Assembly: GCF_037975245.1 (NCBI RefSeq)
Contig: NC_092580.1
Span: 2,392,501-2,456,500, forward strand
Direction: 5' to 3'
Length of the DNA: 64,000 nt
Origin: Apostichopus japonicus
Lineage: Eukaryota > Echinodermata > Holothuroidea > Aspidochirotida > Stichopodidae
Shown here: piece by piece, positions 4,401 through 34,645 of the stretch
How the letters are laid out: every line of letters begins with the position of its first letter
Numbering within the stretch: position 1 is the first letter of the stretch
Notes under the pieces: model-generated
The model's input: only the letters and a program-made list of their open reading frames with translations
Database searches by the model: none
Told to the model about the DNA's origin: nothing
Position numbers and translations under genes: made by a program

Positions 4401-5149
4401 TTCAACTATTTTTTCAGAAAATATGGACTACTTTATTCACAATTTTTCACTATATTTATAAATAACGACCTGCAAATTGTTTCATCTCAAGAAAAAGGGA
4501 TGTGACTAAACAATTGACAACATCATAAAGCTTCCACTACGTATTATATAGTGTTATCACCGTGGGTGACAGTCTTTTTACCTTTGTTTTAAGTGGCCCG
4601 TCCGCTTGTGAGTTCTCAAAGACTAAAACGCACCGCTTTGAATAATATAGATATTTACACTTGCATCAGGGAAATTGTTATGGAACTCCATGCTTGCTAT
4701 ATACCAGGACATACTTAATGTACGTATTCATGGTGTCACTTTTCACGTGGATAAGTGGTTGCCATGGTAGTATACTAGATCACTATCGGCCTAACCATCT
4801 CGTTACTACAGTAGTAAGTGCGGAATCCTAAAGGATGAGTGTTAATGCCACCAAACCCGGCCAAATATATAGGCTACATTGTGGGCTTCTAGAGCATGAT
4901 GAACTATCTATATAAAGCAGCCTCGTAAACTCACTGCCTGTCCTTCAACGTATACATGCTTCCTCGCTCTCTATAATCATCGCCCCTTTTCTCTTTTTTT
5001 ACAAGCCATGTCCTAGAGCTAAATAACTGATAATAAAGACGTCGCCATTATAGGAGTTTTCATATATAACAAGTGGATAATTGCAGCCAATTTTTTGGTC
5101 ATTGCTTCGAGATATATACTTTATGTCACTCCAATATATGTTCATACAG
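1404..5149. other. non-coding interval
   Basis: No supported gene. It contains poly-C runs near 1902-1914 and 3548-3561, a poly-A run near 1983-1998, and a short patch near 2850-2930 in which AGTCCGAG-like words recur on both strands. The open frames are short and lack exon signals. Confidence 0.45.
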
Positions 5150-5450
5150 GTCACCATCTCAGGACAAAGTAGCTGGGGCACAATCAGTCGCTATGCATCT
5201 TCTCTCAGACAAGAGCAAACCGCTGTTTAAAAAACCTACATGGTCATGCAACCCGTTTGGCCTTCCATATAAGATTCCGGCGGATGCAACAAAATTAGCT
5301 GAATATTTCGCCGAGGCCATCGGTTGTCCGCCTCTTGACATCACTTGCTTCCGTGAAAAGGAGGAAGCCGAGGTACTGGCAGCGTCTCAATCAGCTCAAT
5401 CAAACATCATTAACCCTCTGGAGCTATTTCAGTTCTTCGAAATTTTCAGA
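5150..5450 (+). pseudogene. orphan carboxylesterase/cholinesterase-family exon, frameshifted
   Basis: After an acceptor-like tatgttcatacag the frame reads VTISGQS, the start of the family's nucleophile-elbow motif (GxSxG). One extra base near 5171 then moves the reading to the next frame, which continues as AGAQSVAMHLLSDKSKPLFKK, then a segment ending AEYFAEAIGC, and on to PLELFQFFEIF. These are the usual sequences following the catalytic serine in type-B carboxylesterases. No exon for the N-terminal oxyanion region or the Glu/His catalytic partners was found nearby on either strand. The right boundary is uncertain; GTGGTA near 5450 is a weak donor. The piece is either a pseudogene fragment or a live exon carrying a sequencing error. 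Family assignment is fairly sure, status is not. Confidence 0.65.
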
Positions 5451-8400
5451 GTGGTATTACAAAGATGCTTAATTGCATGTAATTAAGTTTCATTTTTGCT
5501 TTTGTTCGGAAATATACCCGGTTGTATTAAACCTGAGCAAAGAGGTCTCTTTGAACTGAGAATACGGCTCAGTAGTGCATAAACCATTTCAAATGAATAA
5601 CTTATTAGGTCCGCAAATGTAGGCTTACAATCGTGGCGTCTATTAGAGAGCTCTCCGCTCATTGAATAAAAACCACGACATGATTTTATGCATCGTAATG
5701 TTATGTATTTTGATAACATTTCATTCATACAATTATTGTGTATATTCAAGGCATATTACCTGCACATATTAAACCTTTATTAGTAACTACAATTTTCAGT
5801 TCCAACTTCCATACGGATGGAAAGAAAAAGAGAAATTACCCATAAATCAATCATAACAAAGATGATATAGCAATTCGTTATTCCATATTTTGTATGGAAC
5901 ATTTACGTTTCGTATAGGGCTACTGGAAACATAGTTTACGATATAGCCTTAATTATTCATTTCTGTGTACTTAGTTGTACAGTAGAATCTCACAACTTGT
6001 GTCCAGGAACCATCACATAAAATTGAAAACTAGCAGATCAAACTGCCATAAGGCACTGAAACCATTTACTGTGTGAATGCATTTTAAAGTTACTCGCGTC
6101 TTACAGTATAATCTTAATCTCACTTTTGATCAACTACTTAAAATATATTTGAACAAGTTACTACAAGCCTCTGGTATAGACCTATTCAAACATTACTTCT
6201 GTCCAAATATTCATTTTGCATGTCAATTGATGTAGGCCTAAGTCAAGACAAAAACCAATGGAATCCAACAGGTTTAAAGGAAAACAAAACAGAAGAAAAT
6301 CATAAATAAATCAAAATGATGGAATCTAAAAGTTTTGAAAAATCAGCAGAAGTAACAATTGAAAAAAAAAACAATGAAAAAGGGTTTAGTTTGACGAAAT
6401 ACAGCAGAATATATCAGAGACATAAGTAGCAATATAATGCACACACTATGGTAGACAATTGACATTGAAGTAACAGTTTTATTGAAGCCTTTGTGAACAT
6501 ACACGACGTCACATACAACATATGAATACTGTACTAACAAGCACTGTACTAACAAGCCTTTCATCGCAGCTCTGTAGAGGGTCTGCAGATTCACTAATGA
6601 TAATGTATGTTTTAGAGGGAGTCCTTCTGTTTCCCTGTTGAGGTGCTCATGTGTGATGGGGATATACAGGGCAACTTGCTATTATATACATTGACTGCAT
6701 TAGTAGTTCACAGCTTTGTAACCAAATAAAAGTCATTTGTTATACAGTTTCAGATACTGTTCCATCAATGAATGTATAGTAATATCATTCAAGAAGATGA
6801 GACTGTATTGTCATGAATTGGAAAGGGGTAAATAGATGCAACAATGCGGCACTGAGAACTAAAAAGTCAATAAACTCTCAAATGAACACATTTTAAAACT
6901 AAATGCAACACAAACAAAAAAGAACTCCCAATCACCAAACTTCTTTGGAAGAAACTTACCAACATATTGTCAATTCAAACAATATTTAAGGAAAGTTCCG
7001 TTCTTAGTCTGCAACGAAACAGTGCAAGAACAGAGCAGTCATGATTTATCCACATATGTAGGGGGCTATCCTACTTGAACTGTTTCAAGAGAAAAAATAT
7101 CAACTCAATAGATTTTACAAGATGTTTTGCAGTAATAATAGATATGATTTCAAAGAAACATCAGTCATTTATTAATTTAGGCTGATTTGATTTTTGATCA
7201 ACTTTTATTTGCTGAGAATTGTAGCAACTGCTTAATCTTTTTGAATGAATTACAAGTCCCTTTAATATCAGGGGTGCTTAAAAAACTATTTGTTTGTTTC
7301 TAAGCAGAATCTGATAGAATGATGGTAGTTGATAACCACTTCCCAGTGAAGACATTATTAAGAGTGCAGTTGTTTAGGTTTCATAACAACTACAGTACAG
7401 TTTTATATTTGTAATTGAAACCAGTAAATGTCTTTTAATTTCTTAAATTATTCACACTGCATGTAAACATAGTTAGGAGTAATAATATTTACATGATTTT
7501 CACGCAGTAATTAACTTACAATGGATACTTATGTTTGCAAGAATTCTGGTAAAGAAAACTAAGGGCAATTCCTAAGCACTAATAATTTATAATTTTTTGG
7601 TCTACTTTTAATTACATTGATTAATAAAGAATATAAATTTCATAGCACCTATTCAAGTGTAGCATGAATGTCAATTTTGAAGGGATCTTAGAGTCATTGT
7701 CTACACACACAAAAACTGATTGTTAACTTATATCTGAAATTTATACGACAATTACAGCCAGAAATTTGAACGGTTCATCAGCAATTAATTTTTCTGTTTT
7801 TTTTTAAATATTATTTTGTATTTGTTCAACCTTCTCAGATTAACTTTGCTAAAGATACACTGGTCAGCCAAATTGCTAGAAGACAATCATGAGAACTTTA
7901 CTATGAGCAAGTTAGAAACAACAGGACTAGAAATTTGATATAACAGTGTAGGCGTTGGTACTGACTTGTATCCCACTGGATCTTAGTAAATTGTTTCAGT
8001 ACTGGTAGGATTAGTTGAAATGAACCAAACATTTAATTAATTTTTGAGCAGCTGCCACTTATTTACGGGGAATCCCATATTTTGGTAATACAGTTGAAAT
8101 ACAAGGTTAAAGAGTTGTATGAAAGAAGTGAAACCCCCAGTGGAGTTCCATTTGATACCTTTGCTTTAGGGTTAAACTAGACATGTATTGTTTGTAATTT
8201 CCAGTCATCGTTGTGACTGAGGATCAACGCCTTGATTGTTACTGTCCTGTGGCCAGGTTAAATTTAGCTCACTTAGTCAACTTAAAGGAGCATTCTCATG
8301 TTGAAATAACAACTCAATCCATTGGCAAGGTACCTCATGTAAATATGCAAACGTGACTAGTGCTAAAGGAGCCTTCCAATTTCTTTCAACCAACCAATAA

Positions 8401-12400: not shown

Positions 12401-15400
12401 AAACCATTTATCTGTTCAACTCTTTCTGATGTCGTGGAAGACCTGTACCTGATGTCACCAGCACGCAAACTCACCAGAACAGCTTTATAAATTAAGTGTA
12501 TTTACTTTACTTTTGGGTGCGCACCTCACTACTGTAAGTTGTTTTATTTAATTCTTTGACTGGGCCCAGATCAGCTATACTGTATATTGTTTGTTATTCA
12601 TAATTATAATTTCTTTTGATCCAATTCAGTTGAGTTTTCTATTTTTTATGTGTCTTGCTCTGTGTTTGGTCCTCACACCAAACCCAGAGTTCTCTGATCA
12701 AGAAAAACATTTATTTTCAGTGGCAAACACCCTTACATAATTGGTAGTACGAGTGGGGTTTCTTAAACTGATCAGAAAGACACAGCCTATAACCAACTGT
12801 AGTGGAACAAATTAAATTTCAGAGATATTTATATATATATATTTTATATTTTATTATTATTGGTCACAATTCTCACCATGAATGATAATATTGCTACCAC
12901 TAGTACTAACACAGGGGGCCAACACGCAATGTCATATATGTTTATGCCAAATGTACATATTCCTACTTTTACGGGTCACCCCAAAAGTGTTAATGACCCC
13001 TCACTTACTGATTGGGTTGCGGCTGTTAAAGCAGCCTATCATGCATTTAATACACCAAACGACCAAAAGGCTGCATTAGCTATCAGGTACTTAGGAGGAG
13101 AGGCTAAAAGGGAGGTTTGCGTTGTAGAGGATGCCGACAGGAACACTTCGGACAAGGTATTCGAGTTACTAGAGCAAATATATGGTGACAAAACCCCTGA
13201 AAATACTCTCATGGCCACATTTTACTCACGGGGTCAGAGAAGTGAGGAGACTATCAGACAATATGGACTTGGTTTGCGGGAATTGCAAAATCGAATAGTC
13301 TCACGATTTCCAAATACAATAGTGAACCCAGACAGGGCCCTAAGAGATCGCTTCGTGGCAGGTATTAGAAACAGTGCCATACAGATGGAACTCCGAAGGG
13401 AGATTCGAAAGAAAAATAGCATGACATTCGAGGAGGTGAAGCAGGAGGGTATTCATCTGGAGGAAGAGTTCCTGGTAGAACCAGCACCAACGATCAACCA
13501 AACTATGGCAGCAACAGTGCAACAAGTTCGTAGGGATGAACCGGTTGATAATCTAGTATCTCTGGAGCGTAAGCTGATGGTATGGCAGCAAAAGATGGAG
13601 GATTCCATTAAAGGCTTACAACAGGAAGTGATTAGGTTGAAGGGGTCTCCAGCAGAAACAAGGGGGTATAGAGGACGACCAGATGACCAGTACTCACCCG
13701 ATGGCCGACCAGTTTGCAGGTATTGCAAGATTGCTGGACATATTGAAAGAGTTTGTAGGAAAAAGATGGCTGCCAGTCAACAAGTAACTTCTCCACCCGC
13801 ACAGCAACATCATTTAAACTAGTGAAGTCCAAGGTTGCGAGCCAGACTGCGGATGACTCTATGTGTAAATTACAAGGCTCAGAAAACAGAACACTGTCAC
13901 CACCCGGCTTAAAGGCAAGACTTGTTGGTGATTACCTGACGATTGACATCATCATTGACGGTGTAAGGACCACCTGTCTTATTGATACTGGTTCACAGGT
14001 TACAACCATCTCAGAGGACTTTTTCACCCGACAACTGACTCGGAGAGATGTTCAAAAAGAACCATTACATTGGTTGAAATTGACAGCAGCCAATGGTTTA
14101 GCCGTTCCATTTCTCGGGGGTGCTGAGATGTCAGTGGAAGTTGCAGGAGTTAACCTAGAGGTCTTTGCATTAATTGTCCAAAATGAACCAATACAGGGGG
14201 TACCATGTCTGTTGGGCATGAATGTGATATCTCAGTGCCAAGAGATATTGTTCCATCATTGCGCTCCACGATTCCTCAGTCATCTTACACCCAATGTCAG
14301 GAATACGTCAGTCCTATTTCAATCTACAACTATGCAGCTAGACCCGCAAGAGTCACAGCCATTGCCCATAGACAGCACTGGAAGGATTGGACGAGTGACC
14401 ATCAGGGGGAATGGTCCCATAACAATAAAGGGCCATGAGGAAATTTTGATTGATGCCTGCTGTAATGAGTTGAAATCTCACAAACGACCTATTCAAGCTT
14501 TGCTGGAGCCGATGCCCTCAGATCGCTATAATTTGCCCCACAACATACTGGTCGCCCGAACACTCGTAATTGTCAATAATAACCGAGTAACTGCCCGTGT
14601 GGTCAATGTAGGTGATCACGACATAACCTTGCCTAAAGGTGCTCCACTGGGTGAATTATTTCAGGTAGAAGTGTTGCCATCGTCAGCAAAAGAAGTTGAA
14701 ATTCAACAAACAGGCCCAAGTACTCTCCAGGTTGGAATCCAACAGCAGCATGTTTCCACTTCAACGGTCATTAACAATTCTGACCAAATAGTACCTGATG
14801 TTGATGTGAACACCAATGACTTGACAAAAGAGCAGACACAGAAGCTGCAAGAATTCCTGTGCTCCCACCAGCAAGTATTTTCACAACATGACAGTGATTA
14901 TGGCTGTACAGACACGATCATGCATACTATTCCCACAGGTGACGAGTTACCCAGCCGAGAACGCTATCGCATGATCCCACCAAAATTATACAAAGAGGTC
15001 AAAGAACAACTCCAAGTCATGTTGGATAAAGGGGTAATCAAGGAGAGTTACAGCCCCTGGGCAGCGCCAATGGTGTTGGTGAAGAAGGGAGATGGGACCA
15101 TAAGAATATGTGTAGACTACAGAAAGTTGAATGATAAGACCAGAAAGGACGCTTTTCCACTACCCAGAATACACGAATCTCTCAATGCACTTAGCAAAGC
15201 TAAATTATTTTCTACACTAGACTTGGCCAGTGGCTTTTGGCAAGTGGAAATGAGCCCAGAGGACCAACCCAAGACGGCATTCACAACACCCATGGGATTA
15301 TACGAGTTCAACAGGATGCCCTTTGGACTCTGTAATGCCCCAGCAACATTCCAGCGGCTGATGCAAGGATGTCTAGGAGACCTCAATTATGAGTCAGTGC

Positions 15401-18400
15401 TTCTCTACATAGACGATATTATTGTGTTTTCTGAAGACTTTGATACGCACCTAAACCGGCTAGGGACAGTATTGAGTCGCCTCCACCAACATGGACTGAA
15501 AGTAAAACCGTCTAAGTGCCATCTGTTAAAATCTTCAGTGCGATACTTGGGCCATGTAGTATCAGCTGATGGTGTTGCTACTGAACCTGATAAGTGCAAG
15601 TCTATCGAGGAATGGCCAACGCCCAATAGTGTTAAAGATGTAAGATGCTTCTTGGGATTGGCTGGATTTTACCGTCGGTTTGTTCAAGATTTTTCAAAGA
15701 TTGCAGCTCCGCTACATGGTCTCACACGAATTCCCAAGAACGAGAATAAACATCCAGTGAAATCTAAATTTGAATGGACTGAAGAGTGTCAAGATGCATT
15801 TATCAAGCTGAAATCGTGTCTGTCATCACCTCCAATTCTAGCCTATGCTGACCACAGTTTGCCATTCCTATTGTATACAGATGCAAGCAATTTGGGTCTT
15901 GGTGCTATACTAAGCCAAGTACAGGGAGAGCAAGAACGAGTCATTGCTTACGCAAGCCGTAGCCTACGAGAGTCGGAGAGAAATGACAGGAATTATAGCG
16001 CATTCAAGCTGGAGTTGCTTGCAGTGACTTGGGCAGTCACCCAGAAATTCAAGGACTATCTGATGGGAGCAGAAGTCACCATCTACACTGACCACAACCC
16101 ATTAGTACATCTACACTCCGCTAATCTTGGAACCATCGAGCAACGGTGGGTTGCAAAACTCTCCTGTTTCAATTACAAGATTAAGTATAAACCTGGTCGA
16201 AATAATGCCAATGCTGACGCACTGTCCCGATATCCACATGTACTTAATAATTCTGGGGACGCCGATGAAGACGAGATGATTGCTTATGCAATGCAGCTGG
16301 AAGCTGCTCAGGGCAGTGAGACATTTCCGGGTTATACAATGGAAGAACTCAGGTTCAAACAACAAGGAGATGTTACAATTAAAGAGGTTGTAGACAGGTT
16401 AAATGAAGGGACCAGACCCGCTGTTCATGGTACGTCAAAATCTTTCAAAGTCCTCTGTAACCAGTGGCAGAAATTGAAGATGAAAAATGGGCTTCTGTTC
16501 CGAACATACAAGGAGAAAAGGGGTGCTAGGTGCCAAGAGCAACTTATTGTTCCAGAGGGCCTCCAAGCTGACATTCTCCTTGCCCTGCATGATAATGCCA
16601 ATCACCCTTCGTCAGAGCGGACACTGGCTTTGCTGAGAAAAAGGTTCTACTGGCCAGGAATGACCTCGGATACTAAGGCATATTGCCAAAGATGTGAAAG
16701 ATGCAGCTTGAGGAGACCACCTGCTCCTAGCACCAGAGCCCCAATGGTACCCATCAAGACATCAGCCCCACTAGAGCTACTTTCAGTCGACTTCCTGAAG
16801 TTAGATGTTTCCTCTGATGGGTATGAGAATGTCCTTGTGATGATAGACCATTTCACTAAGTTGGCTGTGGCAGTGCCTACCAGGGATCAGACAGCAGTAA
16901 CGACAGCAAGGGTACTCTGGCAACAATTCTTCACAAAGTATGGTTGTCCTGCCAGAATCATCTCAGATCAGGGAAGAAATTTTGAATCGATTGTGGTAGC
17001 TGAATTGTGCAAATTGTATGGGATACAGAAGAGCAGAACATCACCATATCATCCTGCCGGAAACGGGGTTTGTGAAAGACTAAATCGTTCACTTATCAAC
17101 ATGGTGCGTTCCCTGCCCGAAGAGAAGAAGAATAAGTGGCCAAGTCTGTTACCAGAAATCACGTATATATACAACAACACGCCACATTCCTCCACTGGTC
17201 ACACACCCTTCTACTTAATGTTTGGTCGGGAAGGCAGGCTTCCAATTGATTTGACCTTTGGACTGAATGACAACCAAACGGAAACTTCCAGCAGTGACTG
17301 GGTTATCAACCATTGGAGACGCCTGCATGATGCACATCAGCTGGCTGAGAGGGAGATGAATAAGGCATCCCAGGTGCAGAAACACAACTTTGACAAGAAA
17401 GCGAAGGCAAAACAGTTGTGTAGGGGCGAACGAGTACTGTTGCAGAGACGAGACTTTAAGGGGCGTCACAAGGTGAAAGACCACTGGTATCCTACCCCCT
17501 ATATTGTTGTAGAACAAATAAACCCAGATATACCGGTGTATAAGGTCAGGCCTGAAAGCGGCAGTGGAGATGAAAAAATTGTACACCGCAATAGGTTGAA
17601 GCCATGTACCATTGACTTTACAACAGATGAAGTAGCGGAACCCACCAATGAACCATTGTCTGCACCAGAGGAAGAGGTCACCCCTCTAATCGCAATCCCC
17701 ATCTTGGAGCCACCAGTTATCCCAGTACCTAATCATACACATGATGAAGAAGTTCTACCTGAACCTGAAGTTATGGGAAATAATGACCAATCGAAACCAA
17801 ACCACGCCCGAACCTCCACTCCTCCTAGGGAATATGATTTGCAGCCTGTTAGGGAATCTAGACGGTTAAGAGGGTTATCCCCATTACAAAATAATGGCGT
17901 AAATACATTGCATTGTGTGTTGACCCCCATTACCATCAAGTCTTCGTGGTTAGAACATGGGTTAAAAGTTGCAAAATCTCAAGATTATTTCATGCATAGT
18001 GTATTAAACTGTATCAGTGATTAATTTGGTATGTTGCTGTACATAGTATTTCATTTCTTTAGTTTGCCTTTGAGTTGTATTATTTCTTTTGTTGCTATTC
18101 CAGTGTTCAGTGAGAGCAGTCTCAAAATGTTTTTGTACTTTAGTTTATTGCTCATTTTGTTGTTGTTGTCAAGTATGCCAACTTTAAGCAGGAGGGAGAT
18201 GTAACATGGTCAGCTCTTACATAAAGTTTTCTTTTGTACTATAGTTTTACTTGTTTATTAGTATTAGTGTACTGTGCAGGGTCACTGTACAGAGGTCTAT
18301 ACATTTGTACAGTATATATGTATGTTGTCTTGTGGTAGTGAAAAGGGGGATTAAAATCTCTCCTTCTGGGTTGCTAAGCAACTATCTTTGTTCTTCCTGG

Positions 18401-24400: not shown

Positions 24401-26751
24401 AATCTAAATATCTACTGTGCTCATGCAAGTTATGGCATGTAAATTTGAAATCTCCAAATCTGTTCCCAAAATAAAAATACAGTTTGGAACAGCACATTTT
24501 TGTGACACACTGCATCATTTTATAATAGTTAAAGTTCTAGTTAGTGCTTGTCAGCAATCTTACTTTGTCAAATACAACAGAACCAGGAGTCCCAGTCTAA
24601 AGCCCTACAGAAAATCCAGATGCGAAGTGCTTTAAGGATTTTATGTCATGAAATGTACTGTACTATAAAATTTCAAAATCGGCTTCCCTTTTTGAATGAT
24701 AATCGTAACCTTCGTAGTCATGCAGGCAAAAGATTGTGTGTGAGTGTGACGCCTTGCTTGTAAAGACGATATCTTAAGAAGAGAAGCTTGGAATAATGTC
24801 ATATATCGTGGTAGGAGAACCACATTGAGAAGAAGTAGCCTATTGATTGTAGAGGTCAAAGGTGATTTGGGGTCAAAATGTGAAAACCTTGTAAACATGA
24901 TATCTCAATCTGAAGGAAAGCTGGCACCAATCTTATATTTCGTGTGTAGGAGTACCAGTCCACATTGAGTAGAAGAAGCCTATTGTTTTGAGAGGAAGTC
25001 AAAGGTCATTTGGGGTCAAATTGTGATAACCTTGTAAATATGATATCTCAAGAAGGGAAGCTTGAACCAATCTTATATTTCGTGTGAATGAGAACCCATC
25101 TGGTAGAAGAAGCCTATTGCTTTTGGTGGAGGTCAAAGTTAATTTGGGGTCACTAGGGGTCGAATTGTGAAAACCTTGTAAACACTTTATCACAAGAAGG
25201 GAAGCTTGGGCCAATCTCATATTTAGTATGTAGATGTGACACGTTAAGTACAAGATGCCTATTGTTTTTTGTGGAGGTCAGAGATCACTTAGTGTCACCA
25301 GAGGTCAAATTGTGGAAACCTGTCTCATAATCTACCTTTTCTCCAACAGACCAGCATATTAGATAACATGCGTAGGAAAGGTTGTTGGCAATTAGCTTAT
25401 GGGCATCCGTAGAAAATAAATTGCCTTTAGCTACACTGTGCCACCGACTGCATACTTCATTGCATTACAAACAACGTTGCTATTGGAATGAACGATACCG
25501 ATATGAATCATATGTAGGAATAAGGCCTATGGTATATCTTTGCTATCGTTTAAGTTTTCCATCGTATTTTGCAATTTTGTCAAGATTCAGTGTCAAATAA
25601 AACTTCAGGTTTAGAAACTTTACGTTGGGGAAATGACCAGGTTCCGTTTACAAAAATTACTGTCGCCTAGTTCGATCTTTATCAATGACCAATCTCAACG
25701 CGAATTATCTGTGTAAAATGGTTCGCTATCTGCATGTGCATTATGATGGGGAAGTTTTCATGTGCGGAGATTGTTCACAAACTTCACGGAGCATTTATAA
25801 CCAGCGAAAAAATCATTTAAAATCTAAAATAACAATTTATTACTGGAAACGGTTTCAGCTTACGAAGTACGTAATGTGTTTTAAAGGCAGTCATAAATAA
25901 GTTGTGTTCATATATTAATTTCTCAACCAATTAAAAAAGTTTATTAAACATCGATATCGAGGCGGCTTAGTTATGCGCTGGCAACCCCTACAGAGTATAG
26001 TCCTAGCAACCCAGGTAGACTACTAACAATAAACATTGGACATCCCCATCTGAAGTAAGAGCATTAAATTACTATTGCCTAAAAAGCAAACTTGAACAAG
26101 TTGTAGGCTAACCGTCTTATTCCAAGTTTTGCGATATTAAATGTCATAAGTTAATGACACAAGACCCCTTCTTATAAGAGTTAATCTGCAGAAAACAAAT
26201 CCACAATACAGGATTATCTGTCATTTTGGTAAAACATTTTCGACAACAAAGTATGGAACTGCCAAGTTGTTTAGGCTTCATTGTGCCAACACTAACATAA
26301 CAACGGAAGAATTAATGCCCAATAATGCACAATCTGGCCGGTGAGTTTAATCTGATCTACGCCTAAATTTATCAAAATTTCCACATGCACCTTAATTTCA
26401 GGCAATCTTACTTTCACTTAGAAAGAATATCATCATCAATTTCTAATTACATAACAGGTCACAAGAACTGAACAAGGGACCTAGGCCTAGGCCTACATAG
26501 GCTAAACTGATATAGTGTACCTTGAAAGACAACACAGTAGTAATGGTAATGGAATATGGAAAGGCTACAGCAGCCTTGTCAACCTGAATTCATGTGACCA
26601 CGAAAGCATACTGAACGAAGGATTGGTTACTCACTCCATTTCCAGAGCTGTAACACAATTTGCTAAGCCGACCTAATTTACAATGGGTTACTCTTAGCAG
26701 TTGGTTCGATAAGATTTTCTTGCCGATCATCTGTACAGACAAACTATTCAT
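9418..26751 (-). CDS. AMT: aminomethyltransferase, mitochondrial (glycine cleavage T-protein), complete 8-exon gene
   Basis: The T-protein of the mitochondrial glycine cleavage system. It releases ammonia from the aminomethyl group on H-protein and passes the one-carbon unit to tetrahydrofolate. Coding exons on the minus strand, 5' to 3': 26751-26635, 24258-24039, 23047-22887, 22380-22299, 21625-21480, 20848-20662, 20288-20172, 9635-9418. All junctions are GT-AG and the phases close, giving 415 aa. Residues 1-39 form a basic, hydroxylated presequence without acids ([17 protein letters not shown]...), typical of mitochondrial import; an upstream in-frame ATG at 26835 is less likely. Family landmarks: [18 protein letters not shown] (89-93), GGIIDDLI (about 133-140), [30 protein letters not shown] (about 269-288), KRRR, and the C-terminal [10 protein letters not shown]. 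Length is close to vertebrate AMT. The last intron (9636-20171) is inflated by a gypsy element in opposite orientation. Confidence 0.95.
9640..11767. other. AMT last intron, segment proximal to exon 8
   Basis: No exon seen. Near 10085-10180 a G-rich patch (GGGCGGATCAAAGAGGGGCT...) resembles a worn hAT-type MITE end. The rest is AT-rich and unassigned. Confidence 0.45.
11768..11771. repeat. target-site duplication CTAC (left copy)
   Basis: CTAC lies immediately before the TGTAAC start of the 5' LTR and again at 19166-19169 directly after the TTACA end of the 3' LTR. This is a 4-bp target duplication (5 bp, ACTAC, if the LTR is taken to end one base earlier). Confidence 0.85.
11772..12737 (+). 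repeat. 5' LTR of gypsy element
   Basis: 966 bp, starting TGTAACATGG and ending CCCTTACA, with TGTAA/TTACA terminal inverted repeats. A TATATATATTATA stretch near 12003-12015 could be the core promoter. Internal short repeats (GGGACACTATTT-like words, about 12207-12390) occur in the second half. The 64-codon open frame inside is not thought to be coding. Confidence 0.95.
12742..12762 (+). other. putative primer-binding site
   Basis: Four bases after the LTR the sequence reads TGGTAGTACGAGTGGGG, beginning with the TGG expected opposite a tRNA CCA end. I could not match it confidently to a named tRNA. Confidence 0.45.
12860..13822 (+). CDS. gag: Gag polyprotein of gypsy element
   Basis: 320 aa. 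The structural capsid/nucleocapsid protein that assembles into virus-like particles. The N-terminal ~200 residues have the gag/PNMA capsid pattern ([55 protein letters not shown]). A charged, coiled-coil-like segment follows ([20 protein letters not shown]). A perfect CX2CX4HX4C zinc knuckle ([14 protein letters not shown]) lies near the C-terminus and is expected to bind element RNA. Translation may begin at 12860 or at the second Met (12878), which has the better CACC context. The frame ends at TAG 13820-13822, directly after a slippery heptamer leading into pol. Confidence 0.93.
   Translation: MVTILTMNDNIATTSTNTGGQHAMSYMFMPNVHIPTFTGHPKSVNDPSLTDWVAAVKAAYHAFNTPNDQKAALAIRYLGGEAKREVCVVEDADRNTSDKVFELLEQIYGDKTPENTLMATFYSRGQRSEETIRQYGLGLRELQNRIVSRFPNTIVNPDRALRDRFVAGIRNSAIQMELRREIRKKNSMTFEEVKQEGIHLEEEFLVEPAPTINQTMAATVQQVRRDEPVDNLVSLERKLMVWQQKMEDSIKGLQQEVIRLKGSPAETRGYRGRPDDQYSPDGRPVCRYCKIAGHIERVCRKKMAASQQVTSPPAQQHHLN
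13813..13819 (+). promoter_or_regulatory. -1 ribosomal frameshift slippery site T TTA AAC
   Basis: TTTAAAC lies in exact X XXY YYZ register with the gag frame (TTA 13814-13816, AAC 13817-13819) and is followed at once by the gag TAG. Slipping back one base continues as CTA GTG AAG into pol, whose frame is open from 13759. A short complementary pair (GAGCC 13839-13843, GGCTC 13876-13880) could be part of a stimulatory structure; that is inference. Confidence 0.85.
13819..18024 (+). CDS. pol: Pol polyprotein of gypsy element (PR-RT-RH-IN), made by -1 frameshift
   Basis: About 1400 aa in the -1 frame relative to gag; there is no ATG at its start, so it is read as Gag-Pol. Numbering counts GTG 13822 as residue 1. 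Aspartic protease: IDTGS at 54-58, with LLGMNVI downstream. Reverse transcriptase: [27 protein letters not shown] and the YIDD catalytic box (529-532). RNase H: D687, E731, D757. Integrase: zinc motif H923-X4-H928-X26-C955-X2-C958, then the catalytic triad D990, D1049, E1085 with D,D-35-E spacing. A GPY/F-like module follows ([18 protein letters not shown]), then an acidic/proline-rich tail. All catalytic residues are present and no internal stop occurs, so the enzyme set looks functional. Confidence 0.95.
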   Translation, partial: LVKSKVASQTADDSMCKLQGSENRTLSPPGLKARLVGDYLTIDIIIDGVRTTCLIDTGSQVTTISEDFFTRQLTRRDVQKEPLHWLKLTAANGLAVPFLGGAEMSVEVAGVNLEVFALIVQNEPIQGVPCLLGMNVISQCQEILFHHCAPRFLSHLTPNVRNTSVLFQSTTMQLDPQESQPLPIDSTGRIGRVTIRGNGPITIKGHEEILIDACCNELKSHKRPIQALLEPMPSDRYNLPHNILVARTLVIVNNNRVTARVVNVGDHDITLPKGAPLGELFQVEVLPSSAKEVEIQQTGPSTLQVGIQQQHVSTSTVINNSDQIVPDVDVNTNDLTKEQTQKLQEFLCSHQQVFSQHDSDYGCTDTIMHTIPTGDELPSRERYRMIPPKLYKEVKEQLQVMLDKGVIKESYSPWAAPMVLVKKGDGTIRICVDYRKLNDKTRKDAFPLPRIHESLNALSKAKLFSTLDLASGFWQVEMSPEDQPKTAFTTPMGLYEFNRMPFGLCNAPATFQRLMQGCLGDLNYESVLLYIDDIIVFSEDFDTHLNRLGTVLSRLHQHGLKVKPSKCHLLKSSVRYLGHVVSADGVATEPDKCKSIEEWPTPNSVKDVRCFLGLAGFYRRFVQDFSKIAAPLHGLTRIPKNENKHPVKSKFEWTEECQDAFIKLKSCLSSPPILAYADHSLPFLLYTDASNLGLGAILSQVQGEQERVIAYASRSLRESERNDRNYSAFKLELLAVTWAVTQKFKDYLMGAEVTIYTDHNPLVHLHSANLGTIEQRWVAKLSCFNYKIKYKPGRNNANADALSRYPHVLNNSGDADEDEMIAYAMQLEAAQGSETFPGYTMEELRFKQQGDVTIKEVVDRLNEGTRPAVHGTSKSFKVLCNQWQKLKMKNGLLFRTYKEKRGARCQEQLIVPEGLQADILLALHDNANHPSSERTLALLRKRFYWPGMTSDTKAYCQRCERCSLRRPPAPSTRAPMVPIKTSAPLELLSVDFLKLDVSSDGYENVLVMIDHFTKLAVAVPTRDQTAVTTARVLWQQFFTKYGCPARIISDQGRNFESIVVAELCKLYGIQKSRTSPYHPAGNGVCERLNRSLINMVRSLPEEKKNKWPSLLPEITYIYNNTPHSSTGHTPFYLMFGREGRLPIDLTFGLNDNQTETSSSDWVINHWRRLHDAHQLAEREMNKASQVQKHNFDKKAKAKQLCRGERVLLQRRDFKGRHKVKDHWYPTPYIVVEQINPDIPVYKVRPESGSGDEKIVHRNRLKPCTIDFTTDEVAEPTNEPLSAPEEEVTPLIAIPILEPPVIPVPNHTHDEEVLPEPEVMGNNDQSKPNHARTSTPPREYDLQPVRESRRLRGLSPLQNNGVNTLHCVLTPITIKSSWLEHGLKVAKSQDYFMHSVLNCISD
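18190..18199 (+). other. polypurine tract
   Basis: AGGAGGGAGA lies immediately before the 3' LTR, the expected primer site for plus-strand DNA synthesis. Confidence 0.85.
18200..19165 (+). repeat. 3' LTR of gypsy element
   Basis: 966 bp; I found no mismatch with the 5' LTR by eye. It starts TGTAACATGG after the polypurine tract, ends TTACA, and is followed by the CTAC target duplication at 19166-19169. Confidence 0.95.
19575..19848. repeat. 28/26-bp minisatellite with higher-order structure
   Basis: Ten units of the type GCATATATCCCCATACACTA + TGTATGTG. Lengths run 28-26-28, 28-26-28, 28-28-26-28. The first 82-bp trio is repeated exactly by the second, showing duplication of a multi-unit block. 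It lies in the AMT last intron, 410 bp beyond the gypsy element. Open frames across it are a by-product of the repeat. Confidence 0.93.
21331..21475. repeat. 13-bp tandem repeat abutting an AMT splice donor
   Basis: Repeated TGGTACTAACTAG units, some interspersed with TAGTTCCCTCTAGTACTAG. The array ends a few bases from the exon 5 donor of AMT (minus-strand GTTAGT at 21479-21474). Each unit read on the minus strand contains GTTAGT, the same hexamer as the donor. Confidence 0.88.
24758..25321. repeat. four tandem copies of a ~131-145 bp AGGTCA-rich repeat
   Basis: Copies begin TTGTAAA at about 24758, 24889, 25032 and 25176. Each runs through GATATCTCAAGAAGGGAAGC, a CCAATCTTATATTT-like segment, AGAAGAAGCCTATTG, and a block with AGGTCAAAGGT and GGGGTCA words, ending GTGAAAACC. 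It lies in AMT intron 1. Diverged copies of the same unit occur elsewhere in the window. Confidence 0.88.
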
Positions 26752-28032
26752 ATTGGTCTTGAAAAGTGTCGTCGAACCGGGTAGCACTAATAATATTGCA
26801 GGGTAGACGTATTTCACGAGATCGTATTTCACCACATTGCTGGCGGGTGAAAATCACATGTTATCACGAGCAATCTGATTGCAAACCTATTTAGGAAAAA
26901 AAATAATCGCCACCAGGTCCCTGGTACTATCACAAATTGCTTTGGGTATTATCCCATCGAATTTAAGATGACCTAAAGAGATCACTCCATAGTACTAAAC
27001 AGCGGAGGGAAATGTGACGTGCTCCCAGATGCTACTTGCGTGTTATTAAACCCGTTGTCAGTTCGACGATAAGCGAGGTCGCGGGGGGGGGGGGGGTCGG
27101 GGTGGGGCCCAGAGTTCGAGGTGGAGGGAGGGGGCAAGTTTCGCGGGCGACCAGTTCGGTCATATTAGGTACTTTTGCAATATGCCACATTCCCAAACAG
27201 TGATAGCGGTACTTTTATGAATGTTTCTTTACCCAAATTGAGCAGTTTATCCCCGAGTTCCATCGGCTAAATTGTTGAACGGATAGTCTAATTACTACAA
27301 ATATGAACTTGATATTTTGAAGAGAAAGTCAATCGCGTAGCCAGGATTTTATATTAGGCGGGTGAGGAGGCTTCAATTTATTGACCTGTCAACGAGACCC
27401 TTTGCGCCTTTGCGCGATCCCTGCGTGGGATCCAGGGGCCCGCCATATGGCCCCTGGTAGTGTCCACGGGCGAAGTCCCTGGGAGCTCTACAATATGGTG
27501 TAGTTTAGAGCTTTCAAATATTATCTATAGTCGACCGAGATTTTAGCCATGTGAAATTATATTAAAATGTTCAAAATACTGCACATATATTGATTCGGAA
27601 GTTGGGTAGAAATTATTAATTGGATAATAACTCAATCAACATAGAACCGTAAATCTATGGTGCTGGCTTAGTCCAATCCGTGGCAGTGTGGCAGTACCCA
27701 GTAATGAAAAACAACAATATGATGGTGTCACAGACAGTGTGATACTTACAAGTTTGAAGTTTACAGCCGACAGCAGATTTGCCAGTTTTCTGTAACTGTT
27801 TTCTGTAACTTCTGAACTTGAACTTTGCGGTGTGAGATCTCTCTCGTTTTCCAAATTCTCCCCAATCTTGGTCCCCATCCCTGTATCTCGCTTCCTATCG
27901 TTGCTCTCTCTTTCTCTTTACTCTCTTTGTTTTTTTTTGGGGGGGGGGGTTGGGGGAGGGGGTAACCGCCCCATCGTTCCTCTTGTCACAATAACCCACG
28001 GTCCTGGACGGCATAAATATGGAATCATTGCG
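26752..28032. other. AMT upstream region and intergenic DNA
   Basis: 5' flank of AMT. It includes poly-G runs (27083-27096; 27940-27949), a worn MITE-like start (TCGCGTAGCCAGGATTTT, about 27333), and a CCAGGGGCC / GGCCCCTGG inverted repeat at about 27432-27458. No TATA box or exon could be assigned with confidence. Confidence 0.4.
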
Positions 28033-28225
28033 CAGTAATATAATAATAAATAAGTTCTTAATATAGCGCCAAATACCAAAAGGCCCCGAGGCGCTTTACA
28101 AAACCTAAAACAAATAGAAATAAAAAGACAGAAAAATCAAAGGAATAACAATTCTAGAAAACACATAAACGAAAATTAAACAGTAGCAAGGAATACCATC
28201 ACATGGAGATCATAATTATGACGCA
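28033..28225 (-). mobile_element. 3' tail of a CR1/L2-like LINE (minus strand)
   Basis: On the minus strand the sequence reads TTTTGTAAAGCGCCTCGG, then GGCGCTATATTAAG, and ends in an A/T trinucleotide-like tail (TTATTATTATA). The same GTAAAGCGC ... GCGCTATAT ... TATTATT arrangement closes the coding-bearing fragment at 37190-37715. Only the 3' end is present. Confidence 0.6.
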
Positions 28226-28436
28226 TTCCCGGCCTCTGACGTAAGTTTTATTTTTATGACATACGTAATACATGATGGCACAGTACCAGTATACGTATAT
28301 ACGGCTCTACACAATATAATACAGGCGTCGTATATATAGACAGCACTGTAAAGTCATTGCACACAACGCCATTTGTTGATCAGTATTGGAAAACAAACAT
28401 TGTCCTACATAGACTGACATCCAATTCCCTTCTCAG

Positions 28437-31242
28437 CTGGTCTGTGTCAGTTTCCATCAGAAATTTTCTCGTCGACTACAGGAAGAGATATTTAGTATGT
28501 GCTGAGTAATAATCGAAGGTGTGTTTTTGCTTTTTCTGTTTGGGCTACCGCCTAAATGAAAGAGGCATTTTCTATTCCTTTTTATTTATTTGCTGTGTCA
28601 TGGCTCAACGAAATGGGTTCCGCGAAGCGGAGATAAGATATTGCGAGATATCATAGGCGTACAGTAGGAGAGGAACTGGGCGTTGGGGTGGGTAGGGGAG
28701 AACAGAGGGGCATCTGTCCTTCCCCACTTTTCAAAGTAGGAGCAAGTGTGTGTTTCAATTCCGTCTCTGTGTACTTCACGACAGTTTATTATTAATCAGG
28801 ATCATTTCCTTAAACTTAAAGGGTGTGAAGACTCACTCACAAAGAAGCGTCTCATGCCGGTAATCTGACCTAGTTTTGGATGCATGTAACAGAAGTGTTA
28901 TACACCACCATCGATCCCAGAAAATACACACATATCTTGCTACCGTCGGTAATTAGACACTAGTGTACTGTCAATACATACAGCTACGGTCAATACCCAC
29001 AACACAGTGTGCATAGCAGCGATGGACATCTCAGGTCTAGATATTTTCTATAACAAGGTATCACGTTTCATTACTGTCTGCAATTTGTAGCGACAAGAAG
29101 AAAACTTCACTTGCAAGCAACGGAAAGTTAACTTTTTCAGAGCGCGGTTTGGGGCGAGTCTTCAATGCCTTTAACAATAAGTGTGTATAATCGGTGAAGT
29201 GATGACCTCTCCCGTCATGCTAATGTAATTGTTTTTGCATGAAATTATACTAACTTAAGTAACCATGTCCTTGCAACTTTATATGAGAAGATTTCATGAA
29301 AGCTGTTGTGAGGCAGGGTTTTAATTTTAGGTGAACTTACTTATGTCAGGTTAGCGTGGGTGCCTTTACAGGAGACTATTCTGCCGAGGGTTAAGTCCAA
29401 AATATTGAGATTATACAGGTAACAGTTCAGGAGAAAAATCGCCTACTTTTCTTCTTGTGATAAACTATTGAATTGTTTTGATTCCAAATTGAGAAAATTA
29501 GATGGGATGAAGCTTGAAACGTTTGACTATAAAGGGAGACCTAAAAATATGAGAATTCAAACGATACATCCTAACGGGACGAAGACTAACTGAGAACTCT
29601 CAAGTACAAAAATATGCTTCTCTGAAGTCAGGCAAACTGGAATAATCAGCATGCAGGCAAACTTAGCTGGTTGGCTGAAGTGCCGATAGCGACCAATAAT
29701 AGTAACTCTTGATTGGACAATAGATTACGCACAGCTGATTACAAATATAATGTCATGTCAAGCACATATCTCACGCAGAAAGATGCACAACAACGCGTCA
29801 CTAGTCACTGGGGAAGAAGCATTTGTGGTATGTAATGGACTGTTGCAAGTAACTATGAAAAGGAAAAAGTGATTGAGATACTTGCATTAATTGTTAATGA
29901 GAGTAATAGTTAACACCTTCAAAAGGGTTTGCAACTATCCTAGGACCTTCGAATTTCAACACTAATATTGCATATACATTTCTTCATTTCAGCCACATCC
30001 TGGGTGGCTCGCAAGATAGGGGAGTGCCTCGGTTGTGTGGACAAGAAAGATGCAAGCGATGTTGAAAAGGAAGGCCAAGGAGGCAACTGTGTATTCAGTT
30101 CAGAAAAAAGTGGCGGAAATAAGGAAAAAAGTAAGTACATCTTTAAAACATCCTTTGAGTACAACATCTGAAAACCTAATAAACACAAGAAATTGAAGGT
30201 TGGATGAACATGAAGTTGTCCTCATAAATGCAAAAATCTTACTGATAGTATTTTGATTCATCAATAGTGAAAAGGTTGAAATCCTGTCTGCATTATTATA
30301 TGTTCAAATGAACTGTGACAAGGAATCACTAAACCTTTGGTTTTTTGGTTGAAAGTCCTCTAAATCAATGTAGATTTTGCCTGCAAATCTACTTCCCTGA
30401 GAAGCAACCTACTGGATGGCCTCTATTGTAATGTAGTGTGGATCATATCAAAACAAAATGTAAGGCAAGTCCCATCAGACTTCATAGCTTAACAGCTGAT
30501 GACATTGTTCTAATGTTTCACCTAGTCCCTCCCTTCCAAGCCCCTTCATATGAAGGTTTAAAGTGGAGCCAAAAAAGTGTCATATTTTCTTATACTCCAC
30601 ATGTTAAAAATCCCCCCCCCCTCCAAATATACTCAAATCCCTACCAAAAAGTTGGTCAAGAGGGGAATTCTCCCTGCCCCCCTTCCCTAAATTTTCCAGC
30701 TGGCGCTAACCCTGATCACAAGAAGCATAATGTGGGCGGAGCTCAAAAGTCATTTGAGTTCACAAGGGGTAAATTTGTGAAAACCATATTTTACACAATA
30801 TTTCAACAAGCACAGATGTCATATTTAGTATGTTGATGTATCACATGCAAGAAACCTGTTATTGAGGTCAATGGTCATTTCAGGACAGCCTGTGTCATTG
30901 CAAATATATTGTTTGTTACATCACACTGCTTTTCACTGTATTACTAAAAACATGTATGTTGTACACCCTCACTATACATTATGTCAGATTCAATGAAGAA
31001 AACTGTTTACATCATCGAAACCACAATGCAATTTTGCATTCTGGTTAAGAACTTGTTTCCTGTTTGTACCAGTTGTAAGTTTTCATTGAAGAACATTAGG
31101 AGTTATTCTATTTCGATCATTTAAATTTTACAAGTAAAGTTTTTGTATCATATGACTTTATTTCACACAAATTTGTCCTTTATTCTTTTCAGGTTGCAAG
31201 CAAGGGAGTGGTGCACCCCCGTACTACTATCGAGGTGGATGA
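28437..31242 (+). CDS. small unrecognised gene, 3' exons; candidate selenoprotein ending Gly-Gly-Sec-Gly
   Basis: Two well-bounded terminal exons: 29993-30130 (acceptor TTCTTCATTTCAG, donor GTAAGT) and 31193-31242/31248 (acceptor TATTCTTTTCAG). Joined, they read TSWVARKIGECLGCVDKK, an acidic/lysine-rich stretch, SCKQGSGAPPYYYRGG, then TGA, GGC, TAG. A phase-compatible upstream exon is 28437-28494 (reads LVCVSFHQKFSRRLQEEIF, donor GTATGT); the start-codon exon was not found. The protein is small, cysteine- and lysine-rich, and carries a PPYY motif that could bind WW domains. If TGA (31240-31242) is a stop, it ends at GG. If it is decoded as Sec, it ends GG-U-G, the type of C-terminus known from SELENOS. 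A SECIS-like structure downstream at 31763-31870 favours the latter. An AATAAA at 31307-31312 would give a short form without it. No family recognised. Confidence 0.55.
31240..31242 (+). other. in-frame UGA, possible selenocysteine codon
   Basis: The codon follows GGT GGA and is followed by GGC TAG, so readthrough adds only Sec-Gly. It lies about 550 nt upstream of the SECIS-like core. Confidence 0.5.
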
Positions 31243-31306
31243 GGCTAGATATTAACCTCTCATCATCTCCAAATGATAATTGTCTGAGAAGAATGCACCT
31301 GGTAGA

Positions 31307-31312
31307 AATAAA
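31307..31312 (+). terminator. AATAAA polyadenylation signal
   Basis: Canonical hexamer 65 nt after the TGA of the small gene. Use of this site would exclude the downstream SECIS-like stem-loop from the mRNA, so alternative polyadenylation could switch between a Sec-containing and a truncated product (inference). Confidence 0.45.
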
Positions 31313-31762
31313 TCATACAAATTAATTATTATGCAAAGACAATGGCAATGTCAACTGACCAGTAAATAATTCTGTGATTATCCTTCTTTGTATTACAAAA
31401 CTGAGTTCCATGCAGTACTGTAAGATTGCAATACTACTAAATCATATTTTTTGTCCCATTTGGTTGTACCGAATGGTTTATTTTCAAAATCTATCAAACA
31501 TATAGAAACTGTACATGTCAAGTATGCCATATATATATTTATAACAGCCAAGAGATCAAGGATTGTCTTTAAAGTGCAAACACAGGAGCATATTACCACT
31601 GTTTTACACCCTTTTTTTTAACACCCTGCATTCTTGTGAAAGAATAGCTATAAATCCAACCTGCTTATCATGGAAATACCAACTAACACAAACAAATCTG
31701 TAGTTAAACAAACATAGCATATATGTCTTTAAAGGTGCATTCTGCTCATATATTTCTGTTTG

Positions 31763-31870
31763 TGATTATTTCTATCATCACTCAACCATATGACGGCAAA
31801 GACTAAAACTCACTTACGTGAAAAGTCTTTACTTGAAGTTTCTTTGAGTATTTGAAGATAGAAATAATCA
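31763..31870 (+). promoter_or_regulatory. SECIS-like stem-loop (form 2)
   Basis: Lower helix: 31763-31776 pairs with 31857-31870 (14 Watson-Crick pairs, TGATTATTTCTATC with its complement). A second lower helix, ACTCAA 31780-31785, pairs with TTGAGT 31844-31849. The core has ATGA at 31790-31793 opposite TGAA at 31834-31837, placing G-A/A-G tandem pairs as in the SECIS quartet. Helix II is 31795-31804 with 31824-31833 (10 positions; one C/A mismatch, one G-U). The apical internal loop starts AAAAC (31805-31809), supplying the conserved unpaired AA about 11 nt above the quartet. A mini-hairpin TCAC-TTAC-GTGA (31810-31821) caps it, the form-2 hallmark. All parts are nested and correctly spaced. 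Confidence 0.72.
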
Positions 31871-33319
31871 TGATCATTTATCTCCTTCATCTTTCTTGAT
31901 TGGTTTCTTTGGGCTTTAATCTCTTTATAATTTCATTAATTTTCTCGTAATTCCAAATATTGTACCAGAATTCTGTTGGTGTGACTGCTTTGTTTTATAG
32001 AAGCATGGAAAGGCTATTCAGGATTTCATTCCTTTGATCATGTGTAGATCATACTCTGGGACTCCTCAAATTCCATTTTTTTTTTAAAGAACCAAATCTT
32101 GAACTCTCAGGAGCACAAAAAGTTTTGAGATATGTTCACCTAAGTTTTGGCAAAACTGTGGAAGTATTGCTGTAGGTTAACCTGAACTGAATAAGTAATT
32201 ATGCAAATTCACTTTAAAACTCAATAGGAGTTTTTACTTCATTATTCAGTACATCATCTTGGAAACACCTTAATCAGCATACAAGTTTATCTGGTCACAT
32301 TTCGGGTCTATAATCATTATATTTAGTCTTTCTCACATTTTTCAGGTTTTCCCTCCTTTAATTGATGATTTGGGGTTTGTTGGTTTAATCTAATTGCATC
32401 ACCATTTATGATAAGACAATCAGAAATTCACTAGTTTGCTGCTGGTATGTGAAATGTTTGTTTTGGAAGTTTACAGGTGATCCTAAATTATCAACACACT
32501 CTACAATCATGAATTCTAGGAGTAATTATGTCTTTCAGTGTATATGTTCACCATGTAGCGTAATATATTTAGATTTTATGTAAAGAGCAGTGGAAAAAGA
32601 TACAAGTATGAAATATCCTTTATTGGGAAAGAGAAGCTGTATATTGGTTTCCCTCTATAATAGCTATATGCACACAGGGGGCTGAAGGTGGGGTCACCAG
32701 TACAGGTGTCTGGAAGGGTGCACGAGTGGATGAAGTAACACCCTCACATTACCACCAGGATGTTGGGGAACAAGAGTGATGGTTACAGCATTGACAGTAT
32801 TCAGATGTTATTCAGTTACACTCTTCTTTTGTGGAATAGTCACTGACTATTTTTAAGTAACTTTGACTGTGTATACAAGAAGTGTGTGTGTTGGGGGGTG
32901 GTTTTGGGGTGTGGGGGTTGACATTCTTGACTATAACAAACTTAGCAAGTACTTGATACAGTTAGTTAATTGAAAAGTGAAGTACTGTTAAACAAAATAT
33001 TAATCATTTTCTAGTTAAAGAGATTTATCATAACACTTCTTTATGATAATGTAGAAAGAATATTCAATATTGAATACACTTACGAGTACATACTTGAAGG
33101 GATGTTTTGGTCTCAGTTTTTATGTGTCCATTCAGAGCAGCTTTTGCCTTGATAGTGGTCCTTTTCTTTTTCTGTTTTGTTTCCTTTGTATCGCTGAAAC
33201 ATTCAGCAATCTCATAGCAGCAGAATCCATTACAAGTCATTAGAAGGACTTACAACTTAATACTAATAAGATGAAAATGATCTTTAATAGAGACATATTG
33301 TTGAAAGTGTAATCTAAAC
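31871..33319. other. intergenic interval
   Basis: AT-rich; no exon pair or element recognised. A T/G-rich run (GTGTGTGTTGGGGGGTGG) lies near 32883-32900. Confidence 0.4.
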
Positions 33320-33600
33320 TGCGCGTGGATGTGACACTTGCTTGTAAACACTGTAACTCTGTAAACACTGTGAGTTCATAGTGGATTACCTTCATACTTG
33401 GTATCTTGATCCATCTTATTGAGTACAAGAACCCTTTTCTTAAACACGATAACTCAAAAAATACATCTTTCTGAACTTCATACAAGTATGTAGATTCAAC
33501 TTGTTGAGTACAGGGACTCTATTGAAATTGGTGGAGGTCAAAGGTCATTTGTGGTAAACATAAGTCAAAGTTTGTAAAGTCTTGTAAACATGATAACTCA
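33320..33600. repeat. dispersed AGGTCA-rich repeat, ~2 copies
   Basis: Diverged copies of the unit seen at 24758-25321: TGCTTGTAAACACTGTAACTC, TTGAGTACAAGAACCC, then GTGGAGGTCAAAGGTCATTT. A perfect DR1-type AGGTCA-A-AGGTCA lies at 33535-33547. Confidence 0.75.
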
Positions 33601-33610
33601 TGTACATATT

Positions 33611-33800
33611 CAGGCGCGTATCCAGGATTTTCTAACCCGGGGGGCGCGAATTACTATCTAAGCGGAGCGCCACCATCGGTTGGCGCGCAACGTACAAGAA
33701 AATTTCTGGTTTTGATACCCCCCAGATCACCGGAAACGGCACTTCTCGGGCTTGAAATGACCAACCAGATGTACACTTTTTGCCTGAGAACCAAGTATTT
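33611..33800. mobile_element. hAT-type MITE, left end
   Basis: CAGGCGCGTATCCAGGATTTT followed by the family's internal words (TATCTAAGCGGAGCGCCACC, TTGGCGCGCAACGTACAAG, CAGATCACCGGAAACGGCAC). The right end is not clear. Confidence 0.6.
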
Positions 33801-34295: not shown

Positions 34296-34645
34296 CAGTG
34301 GCGGAGCTAGGGGTATTGGTCAGGAGGGGCGAGAATGGTCTGTAGGGGCGCTTTCGACACTATCTAAGCGGAGCGCCACCACTGGTTGGCGCGTAGCGCA
34401 CAGACAATTTTTGAGTAAAGATACTCCCTAGATCGCTGGAAATGACCCTTTCAGGGCCTGGCTTATTTGCAGAAAAACGAAGAATAGGGTGTCATCGCCA
34501 AATTACACCAACAAAATGTGAGAAATGTCAATAAGTAGATGAGAGCGCAATAAAAAAGTCAATAATCACGAATAAGTAAAAAGTGGTAAAGAGCTGAAAA
34601 AGGTGCCAGCAGTCCATTTGAGTCCGTATGGACGCTCCGCCACTG
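34296..34645. mobile_element. hAT-type MITE with 8-bp target duplication
   Basis: 350 bp. The left end CAGTGGCGGAGC is matched by the reverse complement of the right end (GCTCCGCCACTG). Flanks AGCGGCGG and CGCGGCGG agree at 7 of 8 bases. The interior shares ATCTAAGCGGAGCGCCACCA and TTGGCGCGTAGCG with neighbouring copies. No transposase. Confidence 0.78.

Follow-up and report, generated by a model that had tools for sequence, protein, structure and literature searches.

Does the UGA near the end of a small sea cucumber gene stop translation, or does it encode selenocysteine (Sec)? The question is raised by a stretch of 64,000 nucleotides from Apostichopus japonicus (contig NC_092580.1, positions 2,392,501 to 2,456,500), hereafter called the window, which reads GGT GGA TGA GGC TAG at window positions 31234–31248. 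The first-pass annotation had described these codons as the end of the last exon of a small gene, and direct reading of the sequence bore this out. The UGA stands in frame and is followed by one sense codon and then a stop codon, as in a selenoprotein gene. Recoding of the UGA would yield the C-terminus Gly-Gly-Sec-Gly, and termination at the UGA would yield a product ending in -GG, i.e., a tail of the SELENOK/SELENOS type. SELENOS has this Gly-Gly-Sec-Gly tail, and SELENOK has it with one more residue. Automatic annotation tends to stop such genes at the UGA and would overlook them. About 550 nt downstream of the UGA and on the same strand, i.e., within the few kilobases expected, lies a hairpin with the parts of a form-2 selenocysteine insertion sequence (SECIS). 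We conclude that this locus is very probably a genuine animal selenoprotein gene.

We examined three things separately, namely the context of the UGA, the splicing and the SECIS. On both strands of the window, GGNGGNTGA was found seven times, and GGNGGNTGANNN with an ensuing stop codon a single time in these 128 kb of strand, around the UGA at 31240. Moreover, the window gene and the SELENOK tail of the same genome have in common the 11-mer GGTGGATGAGG, which spans the recoding site.

For the splice structure, we ranked all GT (7700) and AG (7581) dinucleotides on both window strands, using simple, rough position weights that serve for ranking only. Of the two acceptors, that of the last exon at 31193 was in the top 4 AGs and that at 29993 in the top 40; the donor at 30131 was in the top 20 GTs. 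Splice phases match at the intron before the last exon, and exons 29993–30130 and 31193–31248, spliced in phase, translate to TSWVARKIGECLGCVDKKDASDVEKEGQGGNCVFSSEKSGGNKEKSCKQGSGAPPYYYRGG-UGA-G-UAG. Frame 2 of the joined exons is open up to the final GG-TGA-G-TAG, and the other two frames (0 and 1) have early stops. Two pieces of the intron, at about 30515–30657 and 30720–30839, are dispersed repeats that match window positions 61950–61795 (77%) and 25107–25237 (69%), respectively.

The 5′ end of the gene is provisional. Between 25 and 30 kb, four exons run from an ATG to a phase-1 donor with a score of at least 1.5. The longest, 29755–29827, has a CCAAT at 29693 and an ATTGG at 29712 on its 5′ side and is the most plausible candidate for the first exon, giving a product of 88 residues. 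Its donor is mediocre (score 2.83, top 172 of 7700 GTs). The three alternatives are very short, with 2, 5 and 7 residues, and the 5-residue exon at 26325–26340 has a better donor (6.07 versus 2.83). For these reasons we treat the N-terminus as provisional. We also looked for an upstream exon encoding a transmembrane segment. Among phase-1 donors with a score of at least 4 between 20 and 30 kb, two followed open stretches of at least 12 residues, which had no ATG and were not hydrophobic.

The hairpin downstream of the UGA is a form-2 SECIS. Such elements are defined by an NUGAN/NGAN quartet, a helix II of about ten positions, an AA in the apical loop and an additional cap helix, and all these parts were found by alignment and fold. 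The lower helix is a perfect, A+T-rich stem of 14 bp (31763–31776/31857–31870) outside the part scored by the Rfam model SECIS_1. Above it follow 8 further pairs that form the inner, bulged helix I (31778–31785/31844–31855), a helix II of 9 pairs with one C-A mismatch (31795–31804/31824–31833) and a cap hairpin of 4 bp (31810–31813/31818–31821). The quartet was assigned from the SECIS_1 alignment; the energy model, which lacks the quartet, draws two weak pairs beside it. The folding energy is −34.7 kcal/mol (z −3.68), and 1 of 200 dinucleotide shuffles was at least as stable. The nested hairpin with its 14-bp lower helix, AAAAC and cap thus lies where the first-pass annotation had located it, and the spacing of about 550 nt from the UGA that it had called right holds as well.

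It had also proposed a covariance-model check. Here, Rfam SECIS_1 (RF00031) matched the element end to end at 31781–31848 with 33.4 bits, the gathering cut-off being 35 bits (E 4.7e-5 when 341 bases are searched; E 0.0088 for 64 kb, corrected for 4227 families). This was the first by E-value of the seven Rfam matches up to E 10 in the window. The second, a tRNA (E 0.01), is above its own cut-off, whereas the SECIS match is below its own. By interpolation from the genome-search table, about 0.02 chance matches of 33.4 bits are expected across the 671.6-Mb genome. A second copy of the SECIS or of the 3′ untranslated region (UTR) was found neither in the window nor in the other genome loci compared. 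The element shares with the form-2 SECIS of Rfam the quartet, the apical-loop AA, the extra cap helix and the lengths of the helices, and it differs in its score, which is below the curated cut-off, and in its long, perfect, A+T-rich lower helix. The case for it comes from three things taken together: its covariance-model score, the length of the lower stem and the context.

Table 1. Features of the proposed selenoprotein gene (window positions)
Feature	Position	Strand	Basis
First coding exon, provisional and possibly wrong, MSSTYLTQKDAQQRVTSHWGRSIC + 1 nt	29755..29827	+	longest of four ATG-to-phase-1-donor exons
Internal coding exon, entry and exit each after 1 nt of codon	29993..30130	+	splice-site ranks, open frame
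Intron ahead of last exon	30131–31192	+	sequence reading
Last coding exon, ...CKQGSGAPPYYYRGG-U-G-stop	31193..31248	+	acceptor rank, translation
UGA, proposed Sec codon, penultimate residue	31240..31242	+	sequence; GGNGGNTGANNN-stop unique in window
UAG, proposed true stop codon	31246..31248	+	sequence
Form-2 SECIS with extended lower helix (Rfam SECIS_1 match 31781–31848)	31763..31870	+	
Quartet, 5′ side, non-Watson-Crick, UGAC	31791..31794	+	SECIS_1 alignment
Quartet, 3′ side, UGAA, tandem G.A/A.G	31834..31837	+	SECIS_1 alignment
Unpaired AAAAC, start of apical loop	31805..31809	+	SECIS_1 alignment, fold

Several points speak against a selenoprotein gene at this locus. The first exon is uncertain, with a short alternative that has the better donor. 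A count over 60 kb of other loci, both strands included, gave three instances of GG-TGA-G when no stop was demanded after it; SELENOK is one of them and the others are chance. The remaining points concern the SECIS, the transcript and the protein. The SECIS score is 1.6 bits below the Rfam cut-off, and a loose pattern-and-pairing scan for SECIS elements (1731 shuffles) gave many comparable places and no discrimination. The fold could accordingly be a product of chance or a decayed relic, downstream of an ordinary small gene that ends in ...RGG-stop.

A genome-wide SECIS_1 search, in which 150 of 13789 candidates were scored, bears on this alternative. At least seven matches up to E 10 were obtained, and the window SECIS is not among the matches listed, which are a lower bound. 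A 35.2-bit match (C8:41632870) lies downstream of an AhpC/TSA-like gene, found with 25 bits against a Pfam cut-off of 26, which we take to be SelL- or SelU-like. A 32.7-bit match (C15:1838191) lies downstream of a thioredoxin reductase gene, matched in two pieces (Pyr_redox_dim, 23.8 and 27.3 bits, cut-off 25.3), which reads ...SGC-TGA-G-TAG at 781 nt before its SECIS. A third match of 28.8 bits (C2:21904338) is downstream of a gene with a SelP_N domain (58.8 bits, cut-off 23.2). Of these three genes, the Sec codon was read in the thioredoxin reductase alone.

Matches of other kinds were also obtained. Three of 31.2 bits (C1:9620961, C12:26115497 and C16:40436256) look like copies of one repeat, and one of 24.7 bits is near a retroelement-like tail, in a piece that gave no Pfam match. 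The repeat, with at least three copies, may be taken as a yardstick for false positives or as a SECIS dispersed by a mobile element. In prokaryotic controls, 4 of 14 genomes gave SECIS_1 matches up to E 10, all of them below the cut-off, as is expected at such E-values. We therefore conclude that chance SECIS-like elements exist.

Nevertheless, we regard a chance or relic fold as very unlikely in the window. The corrected E-value within the window and the small number of chance matches expected in the genome argue against it, as do the stability of the hairpin with its additional 14-bp stem, the joint presence of quartet, AAAAC and cap, and the single copy of the element in the sequence searched. 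Above 28 bits, four distinct sequences were listed, three of them behind genes of selenoprotein-containing families and one a repeat, and the 33.4 bits of the window SECIS are within their range. Moreover, the host uses Sec: the genome holds the thioredoxin reductase ending in C-UGA-G-stop and the SelP_N gene, each with its SECIS, as well as a SELENOK tail that contains a UGA.

A real SECIS might still serve another transcript, with a recoded UGA further upstream, and the GG-UGA gene would then end at its UGA. SECIS elements can act over kilobases, and our search for upstream exons on the plus strand was confined to phase-1 donors able to join 29993. Furthermore, an AATAAA at 31307, 5′ of the SECIS, could cut some transcripts short or terminate the GG gene ahead of the SECIS; if used, it would give a transcript without the SECIS, yielding the -GG form only. 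On the 3′ side of the SECIS, none of the four poly(A) hexamers tested occurs before 33999. Both findings add to the points against a selenoprotein gene. However, the acceptor of the last exon ranks near the top in the window, and this exon lies 550 nt upstream of the SECIS on the same strand. Its UGA stands in a Gly-Gly-UGA-Gly context of the SELENOK/SELENOS type, a motif that is present a single time in 128 kb of strand when a stop one codon on is required. We hence consider a SECIS belonging to another gene highly improbable.

The CpG content of the locus was analyzed by unsupervised segmentation, with breakpoints that were unchanged at three transition settings. A CpG-rich stretch at 24623–30114 (161 CpG in 1023 C) is followed by a CpG-poor block at 30138–33611 (18 CpG in 604 C). 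Given gene-body methylation in invertebrates, a CpG-poor block has the look of a transcribed body. Last exon, UTR and SECIS are all inside this block, and no CpG-rich interruption lies between them. The right edge of the block coincides with a repeat cluster and need not be the gene end, a further point on the opposing side; we therefore do not read this edge as the end of the gene. At this CpG-rich edge, copies of a dispersed repeat, about 100 nt long and roughly 75–82% alike, occur at 33653–33754 and 34359–34460, and others lie near 35053 and 49828.

UGA context, splice structure and SECIS each withstand their separate test, and from the sequence we strongly infer that this SECIS serves this UGA. 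The fold of the full UTR contains, in addition, a predicted long-range helix of 18 pairs between 31281–31300 and 31733–31752. It begins about 40 nt past the UGA, stops about 10 nt short of the SECIS and loops out 432 nt, including the AATAAA at 31307. Pairing probabilities are 0.79–1.0 over its 11-bp core and 0.63–1.0 for the five SECIS pairs inspected within the same fold. Perfect helices as long as this core were found in 640 of 12270 shuffles, i.e., its length alone is not significant. The predicted bridge is thus a lead rather than a result.

The predicted protein, if the first exon is right, has 88 residues, is basic (pI 8.8) and ends in ...CKQGSGAPPYYYRGGUG. It contains Cys24, 36, 39, 57 and 72 and Sec87, and the Cys nearest to Sec87 is Cys72, 15 residues upstream. 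With this provisional N-terminus, Pfam gave no family up to E 1, SelK_SelG and Selenoprotein_S included, and the lack of a domain is a further point against a selenoprotein. No chain in the PDB matched up to E 10, and a search of the genome itself with the 63-residue part gave no further copy at E 0.001. In the predicted form, the mean hydropathy over 19 residues reaches at most 0.86, which would be low for a segment that crosses a membrane.

The protein could be a selenoprotein and yet be a diverged homologue of SELENOK or SELENOS instead of a new family. It has the same Gly-Gly-Sec-Gly tail after a basic region containing Gly and Pro, it shares the 11-mer with the SELENOK tail of the genome, and its N-terminus is uncertain. 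We nonetheless find a diverged homologue rather unlikely. The predicted protein is without a Pfam match, its hydropathy is low for a transmembrane segment, and a separate SELENOK gene is present at C20:12.6 Mb, on the same contig and about 10 Mb apart. There, a SelK_SelG exon (C20:12599669, 37 bits) was the best of eight matches up to E 10, one further match being marginally above the cut-off. The tail ...PPPAAGGG-TGA-GR lies about 3 kb downstream, and the gene is known from these two pieces. Like the window gene, SELENOK has Gly-Gly-Sec-Gly close to the C-terminus. In contrast to SELENOK, the window protein ends one residue past Sec, shows no SelK_SelG match and has, in its predicted form, no transmembrane segment that we could see.

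Vertebrate SELENOK is described with a splice site directly after the stop codon and with the 3′ UTR in a separate exon (PMC3316567). The window gene is unlike it, with no GT after the stop. In the stretches of the A. japonicus SELENOK locus that were scanned, an energy-filtered scan for a SECIS returned weak shapes only, and Rfam gave none up to E 10. By analogy with the separate 3′ UTR exon of vertebrates, this SECIS may sit outside the stretch scanned.

In the human SELENOS tail, Sec is penultimate within Gly-Gly-Sec-Gly, like in the window gene. This residue is Sec188, for which a selenosulfide with Cys174 has been proposed (PMC3628699). The proposed partner in SELENOS is thus 14 residues upstream of Sec, compared with 15 for the nearest Cys in the window protein. 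Unlike the window protein, with its 88 predicted residues, no Pfam match and no transmembrane segment seen, SELENOS has 189 residues. Thioredoxin reductase of the same genome likewise has a penultimate Sec ahead of Gly-stop, and its SECIS (32.7 bits) lies 781 nt further on. The window Sec, however, is not next to a Cys, and the window protein has no flavoprotein domain.

On this basis, a mode of action can be proposed. One mRNA would span from about 29.75 kb to past 31.87 kb. With selenium present, the form-2 SECIS in its 3′ UTR would drive Sec insertion at the UGA at 31240, and Sec would probably serve as a redox tail on a mobile C-terminus. Its partner might be Cys72, as proposed for Cys174 and Sec188 in SELENOS. 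Without Sec insertion, translation would end at the UGA and the product would end in -RGG. Truncated human SELENOK and SELENOS ending in -GG carry a C-end signal that is read by CRL2-KLHDC2 for degradation (PMC12035522). The -Gly-Gly end of the truncated window product might likewise be a built-in degron.

The first-pass annotation had suspected a new protein, which is consistent with the lack of Pfam and PDB matches and with a SELENOK elsewhere in the genome. A new family may be spoken of here in the sense that the libraries searched, i.e., Pfam, PDB and the own genome, hold no match. We tentatively suggest, as a possibility that falls well short of the likely, that the gene is the founding member of an undescribed family of small soluble selenoproteins, perhaps restricted to echinoderms or holothurians. 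Its Gly-Gly-Sec-Gly tail would be of an origin independent of SELENOK and SELENOS and would unite redox function and a -GG degron, and the UTR bridge would possibly bring the SECIS near the UGA. If so, the degron would remove the selenium-free form of the protein.

In six marine invertebrates surveyed earlier, among which there was no echinoderm, 178 genes were assigned to 21 selenoprotein families (PMC3473315). No title on the echinoderm selenoproteome or on the family of the window gene was among the matches listed from the open-licence literature. Among the families tabulated in the survey, to our knowledge only SelK and SelS have tails like that of the window protein. Animal selenoprotein families are few, and a new one, if true, would enlarge the selenoproteome of animals. 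With a third Gly-Gly-Sec-Gly protein at hand, one could test whether selection on this tail acts through its redox chemistry, through the quality control of failed Sec decoding, or through both.

Elsewhere in the window, two long overlapping open frames at 12803–18024 resemble, by eye, gag and pol of a Ty3/gypsy-type retroelement, and a piece of a gene from the carboxylesterase family lies at 5070–5486 (Pfam COesterase, E 3.7e-7).

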